Source: Desulfobacteraceae bacterium (GTDB lineage: Bacteria > Desulfobacterota > Desulfobacteria > Desulfobacterales > JAABSP01). Taken from it: 64,000 nucleotides of DNA. The notes under the pieces were generated by a model. It was not told the origin of the DNA, searched no databases, and worked only from the letters and a program-made list of their open reading frames with translations. The stretch covers positions 1 through 64,000 of the forward strand of contig JAABSP010000013.1 in NCBI GenBank assembly GCA_011390345.1, given 5' to 3'. Of the stretch, positions 39,192 through 49,440 are shown piece by piece. Every line of letters begins with the position of its first letter. The stretch's first letter is position 1. A program made the position numbers and the translations under genes.

Positions 39192-39375
39192 CAGGTGGCC
39201 TTTCTGTGAATTGTTGTTGATGCCATTGCTCAAATCTATAGAAGAAGTTTGGGTTTCTGTCAAGAACCTCGGGCCGGCAGGAAATTCTTTTTGCACGGAT
39301 ATTGCGATTATTGTTTTATGAGGGTGGCCTTTTGCGATGGTTGCCTTTTGATGCGGGTTGCGCTATCTTTGCCCC

Positions 39376-40497
39376 ATGAATGCTTCTTCTTCCGAAACTC
39401 CAAAATTGAAATCCGGCTTTACAACAGGCGCGGCCGCGGCGGCCGCGGTAAAAGGAGCGCTGCGTTTTCTGATAAAAGGAAGCGCGCCGGCCGCGGTGAC
39501 GATCCGGTTTCTCACCGGAGAGACCACGGCCATCTCTGTCCATTCCTGTGAGAAATTGGATTCAGATACCGCAAGATGCACCATTATAAAGGATGCAGGA
39601 GATGATCCGGATGTGACCCACAAGGCCGAGATCGGCGCGGTGGTCCGGCTGTTGAAGGATGGAGCGCCCGGGGAGATCCTTTTCACCGGCGGGAAAGGGG
39701 TAGGGCGGGTGACAAAGCCTGGGCTTGAGGTCCCTCCCGGAGAGCCGGCCATCAATGCCGGGCCCAGGAAAATGATTCAGGAGGCGGTTCTGGAATCGAT
39801 TGAAGATTCCGACCATACCGGCAGTGTGGCTGTGGAAATCTTTGTCCCCAAAGGGGAAGAACTGGCGAAAAAGACCCTGAACCATCGGCTCGGCATCATC
39901 GGCGGCATCTCCATTCTCGGAACCACCGGCATTGTCCGGCCCATGTCCCACGCGGCCTATATCGCCACCATCGAATCCTCCCTTTCGGTGGCCCGGGCAA
40001 TGGGAATCACCGAAGTCGTCTTCTCCACCGGAAGAAGAAGCGAGCGTTTGGCCCAGACGCAGTGGCCCCATCTGCCGGAGGAAACATTCGTCCAGATCGG
40101 GGATTTCTTCAGGGCTTCTCTGCGCGCGGCCGGCAGATCCGGTATTGAAAAGGTGACGCTTGCGGTCTTTTTCGGAAAGGCCGTGAAGATGGCACAGAAG
40201 ATTCCCCATACCCACGCGGCCACCTCGGAATTGACCTTGGACAACCTCTCCCGATGGGTGGAGAGATTGGCCGGAGATAAACCCTTTGCCGATGCGGTGA
40301 GGGCGGCCAATACCGCACGCCATGCCTTTGATATCATGATGGAAAGAGATCCCAAGGGGGATACGGGGATCATCGACCAGGTGGGAAGGGAGATGGTTGG
40401 GGCCGGGGCCGAATTTGCCGGGCCGGGAATCCAGGTTCGGGGGGTAATTTTCGGCTACAATGGTGAAGTCCTGTTTGATTCTACATCGGATAGATAG
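39376..40497 (+). CDS. cbiD: Cobalt-precorrin-5B C1-methyltransferase CbiD
   Basis: 373 residues. CbiD methylates C1 of cobalt-precorrin-5B with SAM in the anaerobic corrin pathway. The family hallmark KSGFTTGAAAAAAVKGALRFL is at the N-terminus, with GVGRVTKPGLEVPPGEPAINAGPRKMI and GILGTTGIVRPMSHAAY-type (ISILGTTGIVRPMSHAAYI) segments following. An in-frame TTG at 39358 is an alternative start; neither has a clear Shine-Dalgarno. It is separated from cbiET/cobM by two unrelated genes, so the corrinoid genes here are scattered. Confidence 0.93.
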   Translation: MNASSSETPKLKSGFTTGAAAAAAVKGALRFLIKGSAPAAVTIRFLTGETTAISVHSCEKLDSDTARCTIIKDAGDDPDVTHKAEIGAVVRLLKDGAPGEILFTGGKGVGRVTKPGLEVPPGEPAINAGPRKMIQEAVLESIEDSDHTGSVAVEIFVPKGEELAKKTLNHRLGIIGGISILGTTGIVRPMSHAAYIATIESSLSVARAMGITEVVFSTGRRSERLAQTQWPHLPEETFVQIGDFFRASLRAAGRSGIEKVTLAVFFGKAVKMAQKIPHTHAATSELTLDNLSRWVERLAGDKPFADAVRAANTARHAFDIMMERDPKGDTGIIDQVGREMVGAGAEFAGPGIQVRGVIFGYNGEVLFDSTSDR

Positions 40498-40500
40498 AGG

Positions 40501-42513
40501 CTAAAAGAGCTGCAGCCGCTCCCGATAGGCCGCGATCACCTTCTCCGGATCTCCGGTGATGATCAGATTCTCCCCGATCCACTCCGGGGCCCGGGCCTGT
40601 GCGATCATCTCCTTGATCTGATGCGAGATTCCCCCCCAGAAACTCCCGTCCCCGTCGCTGTCGAATAGCACCACCGGAACCGGCTCCATGATGGAAAGCT
40701 TCATGTTGCAGAGGGTGATCCCCAGCTCCTCCAGTGATCCCAGCCCTCCCACATTGAAGATGGGAAAGGAGGCGATCTCGAACCACTTCTGCCGGCTGTG
40801 GCGGCACGCGGCCTGGAAGACCTGGCAGAAATCGACATCTGTGGTCATGGCCTGATCCGTGATATCGAGATAGTTTGCACCCGACAGAATCCCCCGCTTT
40901 CTCGCGAAGGTGTTGGCATGTTCCATCACGCCGCTGCCCCCGCCCGTAACGATGCCGATGTTCTTGCCCCAGAAGCGGATGAGCGCATCCATCAGCTTTC
41001 CCAGCCGTTTCACTCCGGCCCCGGATAAGGGCTTTGTGGAGCCGTAAAACGCGAAGAGCATCGATTTGTGGAAATCGGCGAGCCTTTCCGTGGTCACGAA
41101 ATATCCTTTGCCGTCCCGCATGGTATGGACCATCAGGTTTTTGGTGAGATCTGACACCCAGAAGACATCCACCCCGAATGCATGATACTCCTGAAGCCGA
41201 TGATGATCGAGCTGGGAGAGAAAGGGGCCATGCTCGCACGAGGGATGGAAGAAGTAGATGGCCTCTAAAAGCCCCTCTTTGGCCAGATTGACGATATCGA
41301 TGTGCTCCAGGATATTCGGGAAATACTGGAGCGCGATGGCGCCGGGTCTTTCTTTGATCTCGGATTTAATCTCGGCCCTGATCTTTGCGGTGGCATAGAG
41401 ATGGGTGCAGGCGCTCTTCAGGGAGAAGTCCTGCCGCGCGATCGCGCAGGAGGCCCGGCTGACGGGGCAGGGCTGTATGGGGCCGTTTTTGAGAATCAGT
41501 GCCTCTTTGATATTTGCATCTTCGGCATCGGTATCTTCGGCCGGAAGCAGCGCGGCCGATTTGTCGAGATAGTGGCAGGTGGCCTGCCCCTTTTCCGGAA
41601 AGCGGCTCTGCAGCCTCTTCATCTGCGAGTAGGAATAGCGGATCTTTCCGTTGATAAAGGGGCTTGGGCTCAAAGGCCGGCTTTTGGGGGCCCGGTAGAT
41701 CTTCGCTAAAATGAGCGGGTTGACCAGTGGATGACGGCTGTTGTTGACGATCTCCAGATAGATGCGGATGCCCCGGGTCTTGATCGGGTCCAACAACGTG
41801 GCAGGGAGATGGCTGCCCAGAGCAAGCGTTGCATTGGAGCGGCTCTGGAGCACCACATAGTGTTCGTTGAGATACATGGAACAGGTGGTGATGGCCCCCT
41901 GGCCGGCCGGTATGGTCAGGGCACTCACCCGGCGCCGGAGCTGATACCGGTTGAGGATCTCCCGGCCCTCCTCCTTGAAGAGAATCCGGCTCAGGGTCTT
42001 TCGGTCCAGAGGCCCTTTGAGATCACAGACCACCCGATGGGGGCTGATGAGGATGCTGCCGTCGCTGGTGATGGTGGTGGAGGCCGGCAGCTTCAACTGA
42101 GACTTCTCGATGGCCGCGATCACCGCGTCAGAGGTGAGCAGCGCATCAGGATCGCAGAAGACGAGCCTTCCCACCGGGAACCCGGGCACGAAGAAATCCT
42201 CAAAGGTCTTCAGAACCGGATAGCCCGGAATTACCGATGATGCGGTCAGCCGCAGAACCGCAGCCTTCCCCTGGATCGCATCGGAAGTGGGGGGCTCACA
42301 GGTGATCTGAACCCCGAGCCGCGCGATCCGGGAGCGCTCGCTGAAGATGATGTGCCGGGACTGGTGCTTCAACCGGTCAGCAAGGTGCGGAGAGAGGCCA
42401 AAGGCCGTCTCAAAGACGATCCGGTTGACATCCGACTCGATGACCTTTGTGATCTGTCCGTCGTCGGATTGTAAAAAGCCTCTGAAAAAATGGGTGTCGA
42501 AATCTCTGGACAT
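40501..42513 (-). CDS. LOG-domain fusion protein of unknown function
   Basis: 670 residues. The C-terminal ~190 residues form a LOG/TIGR00730-type Rossmann domain: FAFYGSTKPLSGAG (about residue 488), GIVTGGGSGVMEHAN (about 523), and VGGLGSLEELG (about 588) in place of the usual PGGxGTxEE. In active cytokinin-riboside monophosphate phosphoribohydrolases these loops bind and cleave AMP. The N-terminal ~450 residues have no family I recognise; they are mixed alpha/beta with no signal peptide. The altered motif (Val for Pro, Ser for Thr) may mean a different substrate. Convergent with cbiD, 3 nt apart. Confidence 0.65.
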   Translation of the reverse strand: MSRDFDTHFFRGFLQSDDGQITKVIESDVNRIVFETAFGLSPHLADRLKHQSRHIIFSERSRIARLGVQITCEPPTSDAIQGKAAVLRLTASSVIPGYPVLKTFEDFFVPGFPVGRLVFCDPDALLTSDAVIAAIEKSQLKLPASTTITSDGSILISPHRVVCDLKGPLDRKTLSRILFKEEGREILNRYQLRRRVSALTIPAGQGAITTCSMYLNEHYVVLQSRSNATLALGSHLPATLLDPIKTRGIRIYLEIVNNSRHPLVNPLILAKIYRAPKSRPLSPSPFINGKIRYSYSQMKRLQSRFPEKGQATCHYLDKSAALLPAEDTDAEDANIKEALILKNGPIQPCPVSRASCAIARQDFSLKSACTHLYATAKIRAEIKSEIKERPGAIALQYFPNILEHIDIVNLAKEGLLEAIYFFHPSCEHGPFLSQLDHHRLQEYHAFGVDVFWVSDLTKNLMVHTMRDGKGYFVTTERLADFHKSMLFAFYGSTKPLSGAGVKRLGKLMDALIRFWGKNIGIVTGGGSGVMEHANTFARKRGILSGANYLDITDQAMTTDVDFCQVFQAACRHSRQKWFEIASFPIFNVGGLGSLEELGITLCNMKLSIMEPVPVVLFDSDGDGSFWGGISHQIKEMIAQARAPEWIGENLIITGDPEKVIAAYRERLQLF

Positions 42514-42653
42514 GGACCTCTGTTTCGTTTTTCAAAAAGAAAAGGCAGAGACGGTTTTTCTATATCCGACTCTGCCAATTTCCGGGGACCTGGGGCAATC
42601 AACCCTCACGCCGATCTTCTTCGATTAAAGCCGCTTCCGAGGAGCGGAAAGGA

Positions 42654-42992
42654 TCAATACCTCGGGCTGGTTTTGCCCAGCCAGCGCGCATCGAGTTCCA
42701 CGCTTTCGCCGGTGGAGGTCTTTTCGATTCTCACCATGCCGTCGCCCAGATGGGTCAGCTTCAGCTTCTCACCTCTATAAGCGGAATCAAAGAGGTTGCC
42801 GTTGCCCACGCTCACCGGATCGACCACGGTGGCCGAATATGTCTTATTGACCCGATAATTCGAGTAAAAATTCGATACCGCGGGTTTGATGCCCATACGA
42901 TCGAGAGGGACATATCTCATTGTTGCTGCAGAGGCGGAAACGGCGAATACGATGGCAAGCAAAAGGGTTAAAAGAACTGTCTTCCGGTACAT
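42654..42992 (-). CDS. Small secreted protein, unknown family
   Basis: 112 residues with a Sec signal peptide (RKTVLLTLLLAIVFAVSASA, cleavage near ASA-AT). The mature ~87 residues are beta-rich and polar, without Cys. AGGAGG lies 7 nt before the ATG. Unlike its neighbours it belongs to no known operon: it lies behind the LOG gene and divergent from cbiET. The AT-rich region to its right presumably carries its promoter. Confidence 0.65.
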   Translation of the reverse strand: MYRKTVLLTLLLAIVFAVSASAATMRYVPLDRMGIKPAVSNFYSNYRVNKTYSATVVDPVSVGNGNLFDSAYRGEKLKLTHLGDGMVRIEKTSTGESVELDARWLGKTSPRY

Positions 42993-43208
42993 AGCTCACA
43001 CCTCCTGTTTCAAGTTAAAAGTTCAAGCTCCTTAACCTGCGCAAGTGTTATCGACTTGCTACAACTTATTTTGACAATATAATACTTTTCTCACAAATAG
43101 CAAATATTTTCCGCAGGTATCGGCAAAAAAATCTTTGCCAAACAGCATGGATCTGTTAATAGAGCACCTGTCATGAAAACGGAAACAGAAGCAACGATAA
43201 AAGTGGCT
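42993..43208. other. Divergent promoter region of the small secreted protein and cbiET
   Basis: AT-rich, about 215 bp, gene-free. Holds an inverted repeat GCAAGT/ACTTGC (43041-43059) that overlaps the -35 hexamer of the cbiET promoter, and a GGCAAA/TTTGCC hairpin (43122-43139). No B12-box or cobalamin-riboswitch core could be found. Confidence 0.5.
43056..43083 (+). promoter_or_regulatory. Sigma-70-type promoter for cbiET-cobM
   Basis: TTGCTA (43056-43061), 16-nt spacer, TATAAT (43078-43083). It would give a leader of about 190 nt before the TTG at 43278. The -35 hexamer shares bases with the GCAAGT/ACTTGC inverted repeat, so a bound factor could block it. Confidence 0.55.
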
Positions 43209-43260
43209 GCAAGTAGCTACAACAAGTATCCATAACAAGTAACTATAACAAATATCTACA
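43209..43260 (+). repeat. Four 13-bp tandem direct repeats upstream of cbiET
   Basis: Four units in register: GCAAGTAGCTACA, ACAAGTATCCATA, ACAAGTAACTATA, ACAAATATCTACA (consensus roughly ACAAGTAnCTAYA). The array ends 17 nt before the start codon, directly before AAAAGGAG. A 13-bp period is a little over one helical turn, so a protein could bind each unit on nearly the same face. Confidence 0.75.
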
Positions 43261-43277
43261 AAAGGAGCAACGGTATT

Positions 43278-44540
43278 TTGTTACCGATAGTGCTGATCGG
43301 ATTCGGCCTCTCTCCACAGGATCTGACCTCCCAGCACCTTCAAGAGATCCACGGTGCGGATGTGCTGGTGGCCGGGAGACGGATTCTGGCCTATTTCGAT
43401 GGGTTCCAGGGGGAAAAGATACCGGTTGCCGGAGATATCGGACCCCTTATCCAAACGATTCAAGATCGTGCAGCAGACCGAACTGTTGCGGTGATCGCAT
43501 CGGGGGACCCTCTCTTTTACGGCATCGGTGCCCGGCTGATTTCCGATCTGGGCCCGGAAAATATCCGGATTTATCCCAATATCTCCTCGGTGGCCGCGGC
43601 ATTTGCGCGGATCAAAATTCCCTGGCAGGATGCAGAGGTCATCAGCCTTCACGGCCGGGGTTCCGGGGAATCGAACTGCCCGTCAAAGATCCTTCTGGCC
43701 GCGATCCGGGAGCACCAAAAAGTTGCCGTTCTTACCGATTTGACTCACAATCCCGAGTGGATCGGGGAACGCCTTGCGGAAACAAAGATCCCGAACCTCT
43801 CCATGTCTGTTCTGGAAAAACTCGGAACCGAAGAAGAGAAGATGAGCTGGTACGATCCCGCGGCGGTCTCCGGCAGAAGCTTTGCCTCGCCCAATCTCGT
43901 GATTATCCTCCGAAAGGAGAACAGCGCACTCCCCGAAGAAGAGAAGCCGCTTCCCTATCTCGGCATGCCTGAGTCGGATTTCAGCCATCAGCAGGGCCTC
44001 ATAACCAAGGCCGAGGTCAGGGCCGTCTCTCTTTCAAAGCTCTGTCTCGACTCCCCTGATTATACCCTCTGGGATCTGGGCGCGGGCAGCGGTTCTGTCG
44101 CGATCGAGGCCTCCCTCTTTCTGCCCCGGGGCAGGATCTATGCGGTGGAGCGAAACCCGGAGCGGATCGAAGATATCCAAAAGAACCGAAGCCGCTTTTT
44201 CGTGCATCAACTGGAGCCGATCTGTGCCGAACTGCCAAACGGGCTCGAGGATCTTCCGGCCCCGGACCGGGTCTTTATCGGAGGCGGCGGAAAGGATCTT
44301 CCCCGGATCATCGAAATTGCGGCAAAACGATTGAAGCGGGGCGGAGTGATGGTGGCCAACACCGTGCTGATCGGCAATATAGAGGGCGCGATCCGGGCCA
44401 TGAAAGGAGAGGGGCTCCTGACGGAGACGGTGCAGATCCAGATCAGCCGAAGCAAAACCATGCCCTGGGGAGAGCGGCTCGATGCCCTCAATCCGGTATG
44501 GATCATTCAGGGAAAAAAGAGGAAAGATCATATCCAATGA
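43278..44540 (+). CDS. cbiET: Precorrin-6B methylase CbiE-CbiT fusion (CobL-type)
   Basis: 420 residues. It carries out C5 and C15 methylation and decarboxylation in corrin-ring synthesis. The N-terminal CbiE tetrapyrrole-methylase domain (DVLVAGRRILAYF, ASGDPLFYGIGARLI, NISSVAAAFARIKIPWQDAEVISLHGRG) is fused to a C-terminal CbiT class I methyltransferase (LWDLGAGSGSVAIEASL, RVFIGGGGKDL). TTG start with AAGGAG about 10 nt upstream. The stop overlaps the cobM start (ATGA). Confidence 0.93.
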   Translation: MLPIVLIGFGLSPQDLTSQHLQEIHGADVLVAGRRILAYFDGFQGEKIPVAGDIGPLIQTIQDRAADRTVAVIASGDPLFYGIGARLISDLGPENIRIYPNISSVAAAFARIKIPWQDAEVISLHGRGSGESNCPSKILLAAIREHQKVAVLTDLTHNPEWIGERLAETKIPNLSMSVLEKLGTEEEKMSWYDPAAVSGRSFASPNLVIILRKENSALPEEEKPLPYLGMPESDFSHQQGLITKAEVRAVSLSKLCLDSPDYTLWDLGAGSGSVAIEASLFLPRGRIYAVERNPERIEDIQKNRSRFFVHQLEPICAELPNGLEDLPAPDRVFIGGGGKDLPRIIEIAAKRLKRGGVMVANTVLIGNIEGAIRAMKGEGLLTETVQIQISRSKTMPWGERLDALNPVWIIQGKKRKDHIQ

Positions 44541-45331
44541 TAAAAGAGAATGCGAAAAATGGAGCCCTCCCGATCCTTTTTGTGGGCGCAGGCCCCGGAG
44601 ATCCGGAATTGATCACGGTCAAGGGGCAAAAGGCGCTGGAAAGGGCCGATCTGGTGATCTGGGCCGGCTCCCTGGTTCCCCAAGCGGTGCTGAAATGGAC
44701 GGGCCCGGAAGCCGAGACCCTGAACAGCGCATCCATGCATCTGCAGGAGATCGTCGATGCAATGGCCGCCGCGCATGAGGCGGGAAAGCGGGTGGTGCGG
44801 CTTCATACCGGAGATCCGAGCCTGTATGGCGCGATCTTCGAGCAGATGGCGGCCCTGGACGAGCGAAATGTCCCCTATTCAGTCATACCGGGGGTGACGG
44901 CCGCATTTGCAGCGGCCGCGGCCCTGAAGATGGAATATACCCTGCCGGAGATCACCCAGACCCTGATCCTCACCCGAATGGCCGGCAGAACCCCGGTTCC
45001 CGAGGCCGAATCGCTCCGAGCCCTGGCCGCGCACCAAGCTTCAATGGCCATCTATCTGAGCATGGGCCTGATCCATGAGGTGGCAGAGATCCTGACAGAA
45101 TCCTACGGCGCGGATGCCCCCTGCGCGGTGACCTACCGGGTAAGCCAGCCCGAGGAGAAGATCTTCTTCACCTCGGTCCAAGAGCTGCCGCAGAAGGCCA
45201 AAACAGAGGGAATCGACCGGTTGGCGCTGGTGATCGTGGGGCCGGCTGTGGCTCAATGCCTGGCACGCAGGAAGCCCGAACATCTTTCCCGTCTTTATGA
45301 CAAGGATTTCCGGCACGGATACCGAAAATAG
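44537..45331 (+). CDS. cobM: Precorrin-4 C11-methyltransferase
   Basis: 264 residues from the ATG at 44537, coupled to cbiET by ATGA. Tetrapyrrole-methylase fold: FVGAGPGDPELITVKGQKAL, VRLHTGDPSLYGAIFEQM, IPGVTAAFAAAAALKMEYTLPE, LTRMAGRTPVPE. These match the CobM/CbiF subfamily. It should transfer a methyl from SAM to C11 of precorrin-4 or its cobalt form. A longer frame reaches back to 44498 but lies inside cbiET. Confidence 0.93.
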   Translation: MIKENAKNGALPILFVGAGPGDPELITVKGQKALERADLVIWAGSLVPQAVLKWTGPEAETLNSASMHLQEIVDAMAAAHEAGKRVVRLHTGDPSLYGAIFEQMAALDERNVPYSVIPGVTAAFAAAAALKMEYTLPEITQTLILTRMAGRTPVPEAESLRALAAHQASMAIYLSMGLIHEVAEILTESYGADAPCAVTYRVSQPEEKIFFTSVQELPQKAKTEGIDRLALVIVGPAVAQCLARRKPEHLSRLYDKDFRHGYRK

Positions 45332-48972: not shown

Positions 48973-49440
48973 ATGAATGAAATCGAGCTGATGCAGATCG
49001 CCCTGACGCTGGCCCGGGATGCGGAGAAGGCCGGAGAGGTTCCGGTGGGTGCGGTGCTCTCGGCCGGGGACGGAGAGATTATAGCGGCAGAACATAACCG
49101 GACCATCGGAAACTGTGATCCTTCTGCCCATGCGGAGATGCTCGCGATCCGTGAGGCCGCGGAGAAGATCGGCAATTACCGGCTTGTCGATACGACCCTC
49201 TGCGTGACGGTGGAGCCCTGTGTCATGTGCATGGGCGCGGTCATCCATGCCCGGATCGGGCGGCTGATTTTCGGGACCAATGACGCCAAATGGGGCGGGG
49301 CCGGTTCCCTGTATAATCTTGCAGACGATCCCCGATTAAACCATCATCCGGAGGTGATTCCCGGAGTTTTGGCCGATGAATGTCGTGATTTAATGCGGGA
49401 TTTTTTCCGGAAAAGGCGAAAATCATTGCAAACGGCCTGA
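48973..49440 (+). CDS. tadA: tRNA-specific adenosine deaminase
   Basis: 155 residues from the ATG at 48973. The first ATG at 48961 directly abuts GGAGG (48956-48960), too close to use; 48973 lies 12 nt away. TadA converts A34 to inosine in tRNA-Arg. The zinc site is His53 and Glu55 (HAEMLAI) plus the PCVMC pair (Cys83, Cys86); YRLVDTTLCVTVEPC and GRLIFGTNDAKWGGAGS follow. The start could be 48961 if leader distances differ. Confidence 0.92.
   Translation: MNEIELMQIALTLARDAEKAGEVPVGAVLSAGDGEIIAAEHNRTIGNCDPSAHAEMLAIREAAEKIGNYRLVDTTLCVTVEPCVMCMGAVIHARIGRLIFGTNDAKWGGAGSLYNLADDPRLNHHPEVIPGVLADECRDLMRDFFRKRRKSLQTA

Follow-up and report, generated by a model that had tools for sequence, protein, structure and literature searches.

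A LOG-type domain fused to tandem DCD-like and dCMP-deaminase-like modules: a new architecture built from known folds

The window analysed here, a stretch of 64,000 nucleotides from a Desulfobacteraceae bacterium (contig JAABSP010000013.1), holds a long reading frame in which a first-pass annotation had seen a LOG-type domain preceded by a large N-terminal part of unrecognised fold, and the question it raises is what these parts are and what they might do together. The frame at 40501-42513 of the minus strand, which has an ATG start, encodes 670 aa and contains both motifs quoted for it, is confirmed and, judged by its conservation, is not a chance reading frame, since 20 other genomes hold the gene whole, at 54-71% identity and over alignments that start at residues 3-9 and end at residue 670.

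40501..42513, minus strand: whole ORF, 670 aa plus stop, with orthologues in relatives.

The sole Pfam match of the 670-aa protein is to Lysine_decarbox (PF03641, residues 572-661, E 5e-7), its match to NCBIfam TIGR00730 lies under the family cut-off, and the N-terminal part has no match in either Pfam or NCBIfam. A Pfam search with all members of alignments A1 and A3 returned just LOG-type families and chance matches; among solved structures, sequence search with the profile of the N-terminal module gave nothing at E values up to 10, and that with the full-length profile gave LOGs and chance matches only. From structure models, structure matching and profile comparison, it is nevertheless well supported that the 670 residues consist of a tandem DCD-like module (1-285), a dCMP-deaminase-like domain (293-459) and a LOG domain (481-670). 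The claim of a LOG-domain fusion is thus borne out, the LOG fold being located at 481-670 with further domains N-terminal to it, and what had been called unrecognised turned out to be two known nucleotide-enzyme folds.

The gene was found in 22 of 96 related genomes, namely the source itself, the 20 others mentioned above and one (G010) in which it is split in two frames. A more distant type B is present in seven of the same 96 genomes and a type C in two, and no genome holds two types together; the source genome has one full copy of the fusion and one separate LOG-like protein (218 aa). When 84,980 species genomes were scanned with patterns drawn from the 670-aa protein, which reach close relatives only, 33 loci came up, nearly all assigned to Desulfobacterales, Desulfobacteraceae, Deltaproteobacteria or their genera, with Desulfatitalea alkaliphila among the carriers. 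In class samples totalling 291 genomes, subfamily B was found full-length in 23 and subfamily C in 36, all of one family, while subfamily D was found in 4 of the 395 genomes of a phylum sample, once as a partial copy. Profile-profile alignments cover 555 columns between A and B (E 2.8e-25) and 582 columns between A and C (E 5.2e-18; about 21% identity), which makes A, B and C full-length homologues. The family, with its four subfamilies A-D and normally one copy per genome, is so far known only from the phylum of the source, coverage beyond it consisting of the species-genome scan and of plasmid, phage and viral-contig collections; the plasmid and phage collections gave no match to the family, and none of 14 pattern matches in IMG/VR viral contigs was a true relative. 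Residue by residue, 68 fusions (32 A, 17 B, 16 C and 3 D, which are kin, so that counts of invariance are not independent) were compared with 21 stand-alone LOG-like proteins of the same genome group. The set omits the split gene, six fragmentary A sequences from alignment A1, three D loci that were partial or duplicate, and further matches.

The features of the N-terminal module are the following.

41659..42513, minus strand: tandem DCD (dCTP deaminase/dUTPase-like) module, residues 1-285, from the AlphaFold2 model, Foldseek, VIA-align and hhalign of each half.
42139..42492, minus strand: N-half, residues 8-125, with an RS(S)xxRLG-type motif, from hhalign to short DCD.
42313..42336, minus strand: residues 60-67, RSRIARLG, equivalent to R110-S111-S112-L-A-R115-L-G of E. 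coli Dcd; S61 and G67 in 68/68 fusions.
41674..41928, minus strand: C-half, residues 196-280, with LDPxxTRGIxxxLEIVN, from hhalign to short DCD.
41752..41754, minus strand: E254, which aligns with E138 of E. coli Dcd and is found in 68/68 fusions.

The nature of this module emerged from an AlphaFold2 model of residues 1-290, built from 31 family-A sequences with no templates (pLDDT 71.2, pTM 0.73, much of 199-266 lying below pLDDT 50). Its top PDB match in Foldseek was 2r9q, a two-domain Agrobacterium 2'-deoxycytidine 5'-triphosphate deaminase (E 5e-4), the runner-up being unrelated (E 0.055), and VIA-align superposed it on 2r9q with a Z of 10.1 over 237 residues (4.8 A), followed at ranks 2-16 exclusively by dCTP deaminases or dUTPases (Z 3.5-4.2). 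The DCD/dUTPase beta fold is therefore present twice, the second half with low model confidence and with support from profiles. That support, which does not depend on the structure models, came from hhalign rankings against 21 profiles (8 candidate and 13 unrelated), in which single-domain DCD was first both for residues 8-125 (score 29.4, E 6.5e-4, 19 columns; best unrelated 18.2) and for residues 196-280 (score 29.8, E 3.1e-4, 62 columns; best unrelated 15.2), and in neither case did any of 150 column permutations, which amount to somewhat fewer than 150 independent draws, match the observed score. Absolute probabilities in these comparisons were low throughout (8-40%), and the assignment leans on the ranking, the agreement of motifs and the permutation controls. 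Little can be read into a score near 16, since the cross-control of the middle module against DCD was also high (1 of 150 permutations got to 16.4), and the sequence signal rests on subfamily A and the pooled profile, since B alone and C plus D alone matched DCD no better than the controls did. Against the long two-domain DCD, the match was weak (probability 0.3-0.7).

In the resulting alignment, ERSRIARLG of the fusion lies over GRSSLARLG of E. coli Dcd (with R110, S111, S112 and R115), and L-E254-I-V-N lies over L-E138-F-Y-N. We take E138 to be the catalytic Glu of the E. coli enzyme, and PDB titles naming E138A and E138D variants agree. The full set of RSS...R and catalytic Glu is absent from either half by itself: the first carries RS..R, the second the Glu. 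The 32 members of subfamily A have no Pfam DCD match at E values up to 10. Residues on the phosphate side of DCDs vary: R60 is replaced by His throughout B and R65 by Gln throughout C and D, and the fusions have Arg, Thr, Ser or Gly where RSS has its second Ser.

Between the DCD-like and LOG modules lies a domain with the following features.

41137..41637, minus strand: dCMP-deaminase-like domain without the catalytic zinc site, residues 293-459, from VIA-align and hhalign.
41389..41487, minus strand: residues 343-375, NGP...C349...C356...C369-x-H371-x-YAT, counterpart of GYNG...HC...GC...HELCxxxHAE.
41302..41325, minus strand: residues 397-404, YFPNILEH, counterpart of LPCSICC (PCxxC).

Its deaminase fold was recognised in the full-length model of the protein (itself modest, with pLDDT 63.9 and pTM 0.47), residues 293-459 of which matched 7fh4, the PBCV-1 bi-DCD (Z 10.8), the human structure 2w4l (Z 10.6) and 1vq2 from T4 (Z 10.0) in VIA-align. 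Consistently, hhalign placed dCMP deaminase first of the 21 profiles (score 23.4; best unrelated 18.0), a score that none of 150 permutations equalled. When aligned with dCMP deaminases, C369 takes the place of the Cys in HELC, Y373-A-T that of HAE and P399-N-x-x-E403 that of PCxxC. With YAT over HAE and PNxxE over PCxxC, the HxE plus PCxxC zinc site is absent, and on this alignment the zinc ligands and the catalytic Glu are lost in the window protein; the deaminase HAE is found in none of the 68 aligned fusions. Cys 313, 349, 356 and 369 are present in 32/32 members of subfamily A, where they may form an alternative metal site; the other three subfamilies do not conserve them. The same distribution is seen for N343-G344, found in all 32 members of A and not kept elsewhere.

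The C-terminal module has the following features.

40504..41073, minus strand: LOG domain, residues 481-670, from VIA-align to 5its, Pfam PF03641 and hhalign to stand-alone LOGs.
40921..40947, minus strand: LOG glycine motif TGGGSGVME, residues 523-531, from alignment with LOGs.
40789..40794, minus strand: R574, the LOG catalytic Arg, and Q575, a Lys in stand-alone LOGs, from the comparison set (roles as given in the part of PMC4979012 consulted).
40726..40752, minus strand: VGGLGSLEE, residues 588-596, counterpart of PGGxGTxxE, with E596 the catalytic Glu.
40717..40719, minus strand: I599, a Glu in 21/21 stand-alone LOGs, at the position of CgLOG Glu125 by spacing.

The LOG/SLOG Rossmann-like fold was found, the highest VIA-align match of residues 481-670 being 5its (Z 12.7 over 168 residues) and hhalign to stand-alone LOGs giving a probability of 99. 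The glycine motif said to be retained is indeed there, as TGGGSGVMEH from residue 523, at which TGGGSGVMEHAN begins, and V588-GGLGSLEE reaches the catalytic Glu at E596. The claim that PGGxGTxEE is altered holds in part, for the Pro is gone and the Thr has mostly become Ser, but glycines and catalytic Glu persist. The fusion thus lacks an intact PGGxGTxxE motif, its Pro occurring in 0/68 fusions and in 21/21 stand-alone LOGs, yet keeps the LOG catalytic pair, Arg and Glu (R574 and E596) being found in every fusion and every stand-alone protein compared. Two further positions separate the groups completely: the residue after the catalytic Arg is Gln in 68/68 fusions and Lys in 21/21 stand-alone LOGs, and the third residue past the catalytic Glu is Ile in the former and Glu in the latter (same counts). 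In CgLOG, Arg99 and Glu122 are the proposed catalytic residues, Lys100 helps to hold the adenine, and the pocket for the prenyl group includes Lys100 and Glu125, as described in PMC4979012. Because R-K has become R-Q, the motif Pro is lost and the pocket Glu has become Ile, a changed base pocket in the fusion LOG module seems likely and cytokinin activity seems unlikely. A FastTree tree separates the fusions, as one clade on a long stem (support 0.72), from the stand-alone LOGs, and a single origin of the fusions may be proposed with weak support.

How does this protein compare with known systems? With the two-domain dCTP deaminase (2r9q; DCD_N plus DCD_C) it shares the fold of the first 281 modelled residues, their order and the tandem halves, but it has no Pfam DCD match, its motifs are split between the halves, two further domains follow, and it matches the profile of single-domain DCD better than that of the long form. 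Its middle part resembles dCMP deaminases of the DCTD/ComEB type in fold (Z 10.0-10.8) and, in subfamily A, in the NG and Cys positions, but has YAT for HAE and PNxxE for PCxxC. Since the defining motifs fail, the fusion is not a strict member of either the DCD or the dCMP deaminase families. From LOGs (types I and II, CgLOG, TT1465), which it resembles in fold (Z up to 12.7) and in the catalytic Arg and Glu, it differs in the absent Pro, R-Q, the Ile at +3 and about 480 extra residues. PpnN (YgdH), a gated nucleoside-monophosphate nucleosidase, likewise has a LOG-type core with partner domains and possible nucleotide gating (passages from PMC6717881), but the partners in the fusion are a DCD and a dead deaminase; there is no sign of the flanking PpnN domains PAG1 and PAG2 (DUF4478 and DUF3412), since no Pfam match other than PF03641 was obtained at E values up to 1. 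An inactivated DCTD-like domain in a non-catalytic role is also known from CDADC1, the human (d)CTP deaminase, for which the sections of PMC12088426 consulted describe no LOG or DCD part. The first-pass annotation had allowed for the N-terminal part being a known LOG-associated domain of a family already described, and this is not what was found: the folds are known, and their joining to LOG is unreported in the literature searched, open-licence PubMed Central yielding no published description of DCD-like, dCMP-deaminase-like and LOG parts in one chain. The fusion is therefore a new domain architecture of LOG-type nucleosidases built from known folds. Three nucleotide-handling folds, two of them for pyrimidine deoxynucleotides, have been joined, in subfamilies so distant that ordinary sequence search barely links them, and what they form together suggests that pyrimidine nucleotides are handled here in a new manner.

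That the protein processes or senses nucleotides, as had been suggested, is likely. The reading that we favour, at a probability of about 0.4, is that of a bifunctional pyrimidine-nucleotide enzyme, with presumed substrates, in which a composite DCD-type site and a LOG nucleosidase would be carried on a dead-deaminase scaffold. A single DCD-type site, to which the first half would give its RS-motif and the second half its Glu, would act on a pyrimidine (deoxy)nucleoside triphosphate; a pyrimidine (deoxy)nucleoside 5'-monophosphate would then be split by the LOG module, with the base and (deoxy)ribose 5-phosphate as products; and the dead deaminase module that joins these two would provide a scaffold or an allosteric pocket for a nucleotide, the physiological sense presumably being sanitation or controlled breakdown of pyrimidine nucleotides. 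That the DCD site is composed from both halves is a guess, suggested by the placing of RS motif and Glu in separate halves and by DCD active sites lying between protomers (excerpt of PMC12088426). Residues invariant in 68/68 fusions over A-D include S61, G67, A238, T246, E254 and P399 in the N-terminal and middle parts and R574, Q575, G589, G590, G592, E596, K605 and P613 in the LOG part. As exactly one of three centres, that of the deaminase, is lost, the DCD and LOG centres would be the ones in use; two catalytic sets surviving the divergence of A and C while the third is gone, two working centres and one scaffold would be the simplest reading. Speaking against it are the variation of the DCD phosphate-side residues, the incomplete DCD motif set of each half, the modest full-length model and the dUTPase and apparent dCMP deaminase of the genome, which leave no obvious pathway need. 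It would be bolder, and is doubtful, to suppose that one chain takes a pyrimidine dNTP through the composite DCD site and hands the monophosphate to the R-Q LOG site, whose base specificity would be new, with the fossil dCMP deaminase as an allosteric hinge that senses dNTP; if true, this would be a new enzyme class, a single-protein line for pyrimidine dNTP breakdown in Desulfobacterales and relatives.

A close rival of the bifunctional enzyme, and a tenable one, is a dNTP-gated nucleosidase, in which the DCD and dead-deaminase modules would do no more than sense a pyrimidine dNTP (dCTP, dTTP), the LOG site being opened or closed in response. PpnN offers a precedent, its LOG-type core being gated by two flanking domains that bind the alarmone (p)ppGpp (PMC6717881, consulted in part), dCMP deaminases bind dCTP or dTTP allosterically at a separate site marked by a G(Y/W)N(A/G) motif (same excerpt of PMC12088426), and dTTP regulates DCDs cooperatively (according to the extract of PMC4827122). 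N343-G344 fits such a site, being kept throughout subfamily A despite the lost catalytic motif, but it is lost in B, C and D, and the DCD catalytic Glu, present in 68/68, is not expected of a mere sensor. The converse, a DCD-type enzyme whose LOG domain is a mere ligand-binding, SLOG-like sensor, would suit a LOG motif without Pro and mostly without Thr, and SLOG domains do serve as sensors elsewhere (PMC11204291); the invariant LOG catalytic pair, shared with the stand-alone LOGs, makes it improbable. It is very improbable that the protein is a LOG enzyme of the usual kind, with AMP or cytokinin ribotides as its substrates and an irrelevant N-terminal extension, for although fold and catalytic pair are present, the Lys-to-Gln and +3 Glu-to-Ile changes affect positions that line the adenine/prenyl pocket of CgLOG (PMC4979012, in part), the extension is also highly conserved, and the genome has its separate LOG-like protein. 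Nucleotide depletion by dCTP deaminases is a known defence idea, and it lends a precedent to the least probable of these readings, an anti-phage effector that depletes nucleotides; the single copy per genome, the lineage-wise conservation, the lack of a PADLOC family for the window protein, the phage and plasmid collections without a match and the unconserved neighbourhood all tell against it, and PHROGs gave nothing useful. The retention of the fusion across four subfamilies suggests a steady cellular role outside the textbook pyrimidine pathway, and two ideas can be put directly to the test in this family: that a LOG nucleosidase can have a base pocket not made for cytokinins, and that a dead deaminase can be taken over as a scaffold or sensor.

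The canonical pyrimidine enzymes bear on this role. A dUTPase is present in the source genome and, counting some matches that are DCD-like or only partial, in 88 of 96 relatives, and all 40 relatives examined for PF00383 have such a protein; the source genome has a PF00383 protein with canonical dCMP-deaminase motifs, an apparent dCMP deaminase, plus a RibD-length deaminase frame. Since it has both, the fusion is no obvious stand-in for dUTPase or dCMP deaminase, and replacement of a canonical enzyme was rejected on the distribution of the two. Canonical DCD is absent from the source genome and rare among relatives, 7/96 having a PF22769 match that scores at least about 75 bits and most other matches falling on the dUTPase of the genome. 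At L115:1-2106, a canonical DCD domain ends a 702-residue open frame with a different N-terminal part, and the window also encodes, at 48982-49278, a deaminase domain of PF00383 whose HAE motif resembles that of TadA.

Gene neighbourhood is not conserved, the commonest neighbour clusters occurring in 13, 10 and 9 of 34 stretches. In the window, the fusion gene stands alone on the minus strand amid cobalamin-like genes (39358-45331), a cluster that it interrupts, lying between cbiD-like (39358-40497) and cbiE/T-like (43278-44540) and cbiF-like (44498-45331) genes, all named by judgement from sequence; the neighbours in relatives differ. A MutL-like gene adjoins the D-type gene in one genus only (G441 and G460; L066, L108 and L111) and not at the other D loci inspected. 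Some loci are irregular: at L023 and L057 the orthologue is split in two frames at residue 404/405, by frameshift, pseudogene formation or assembly error, and at L058 it ends early, at residue 383. In G095, three other places (C45, C1 and C47) carry sequence 96% identical to the first ~55 residues of L026, the B-type frame, so that the B-type gene is probably preceded directly by a repeat element.
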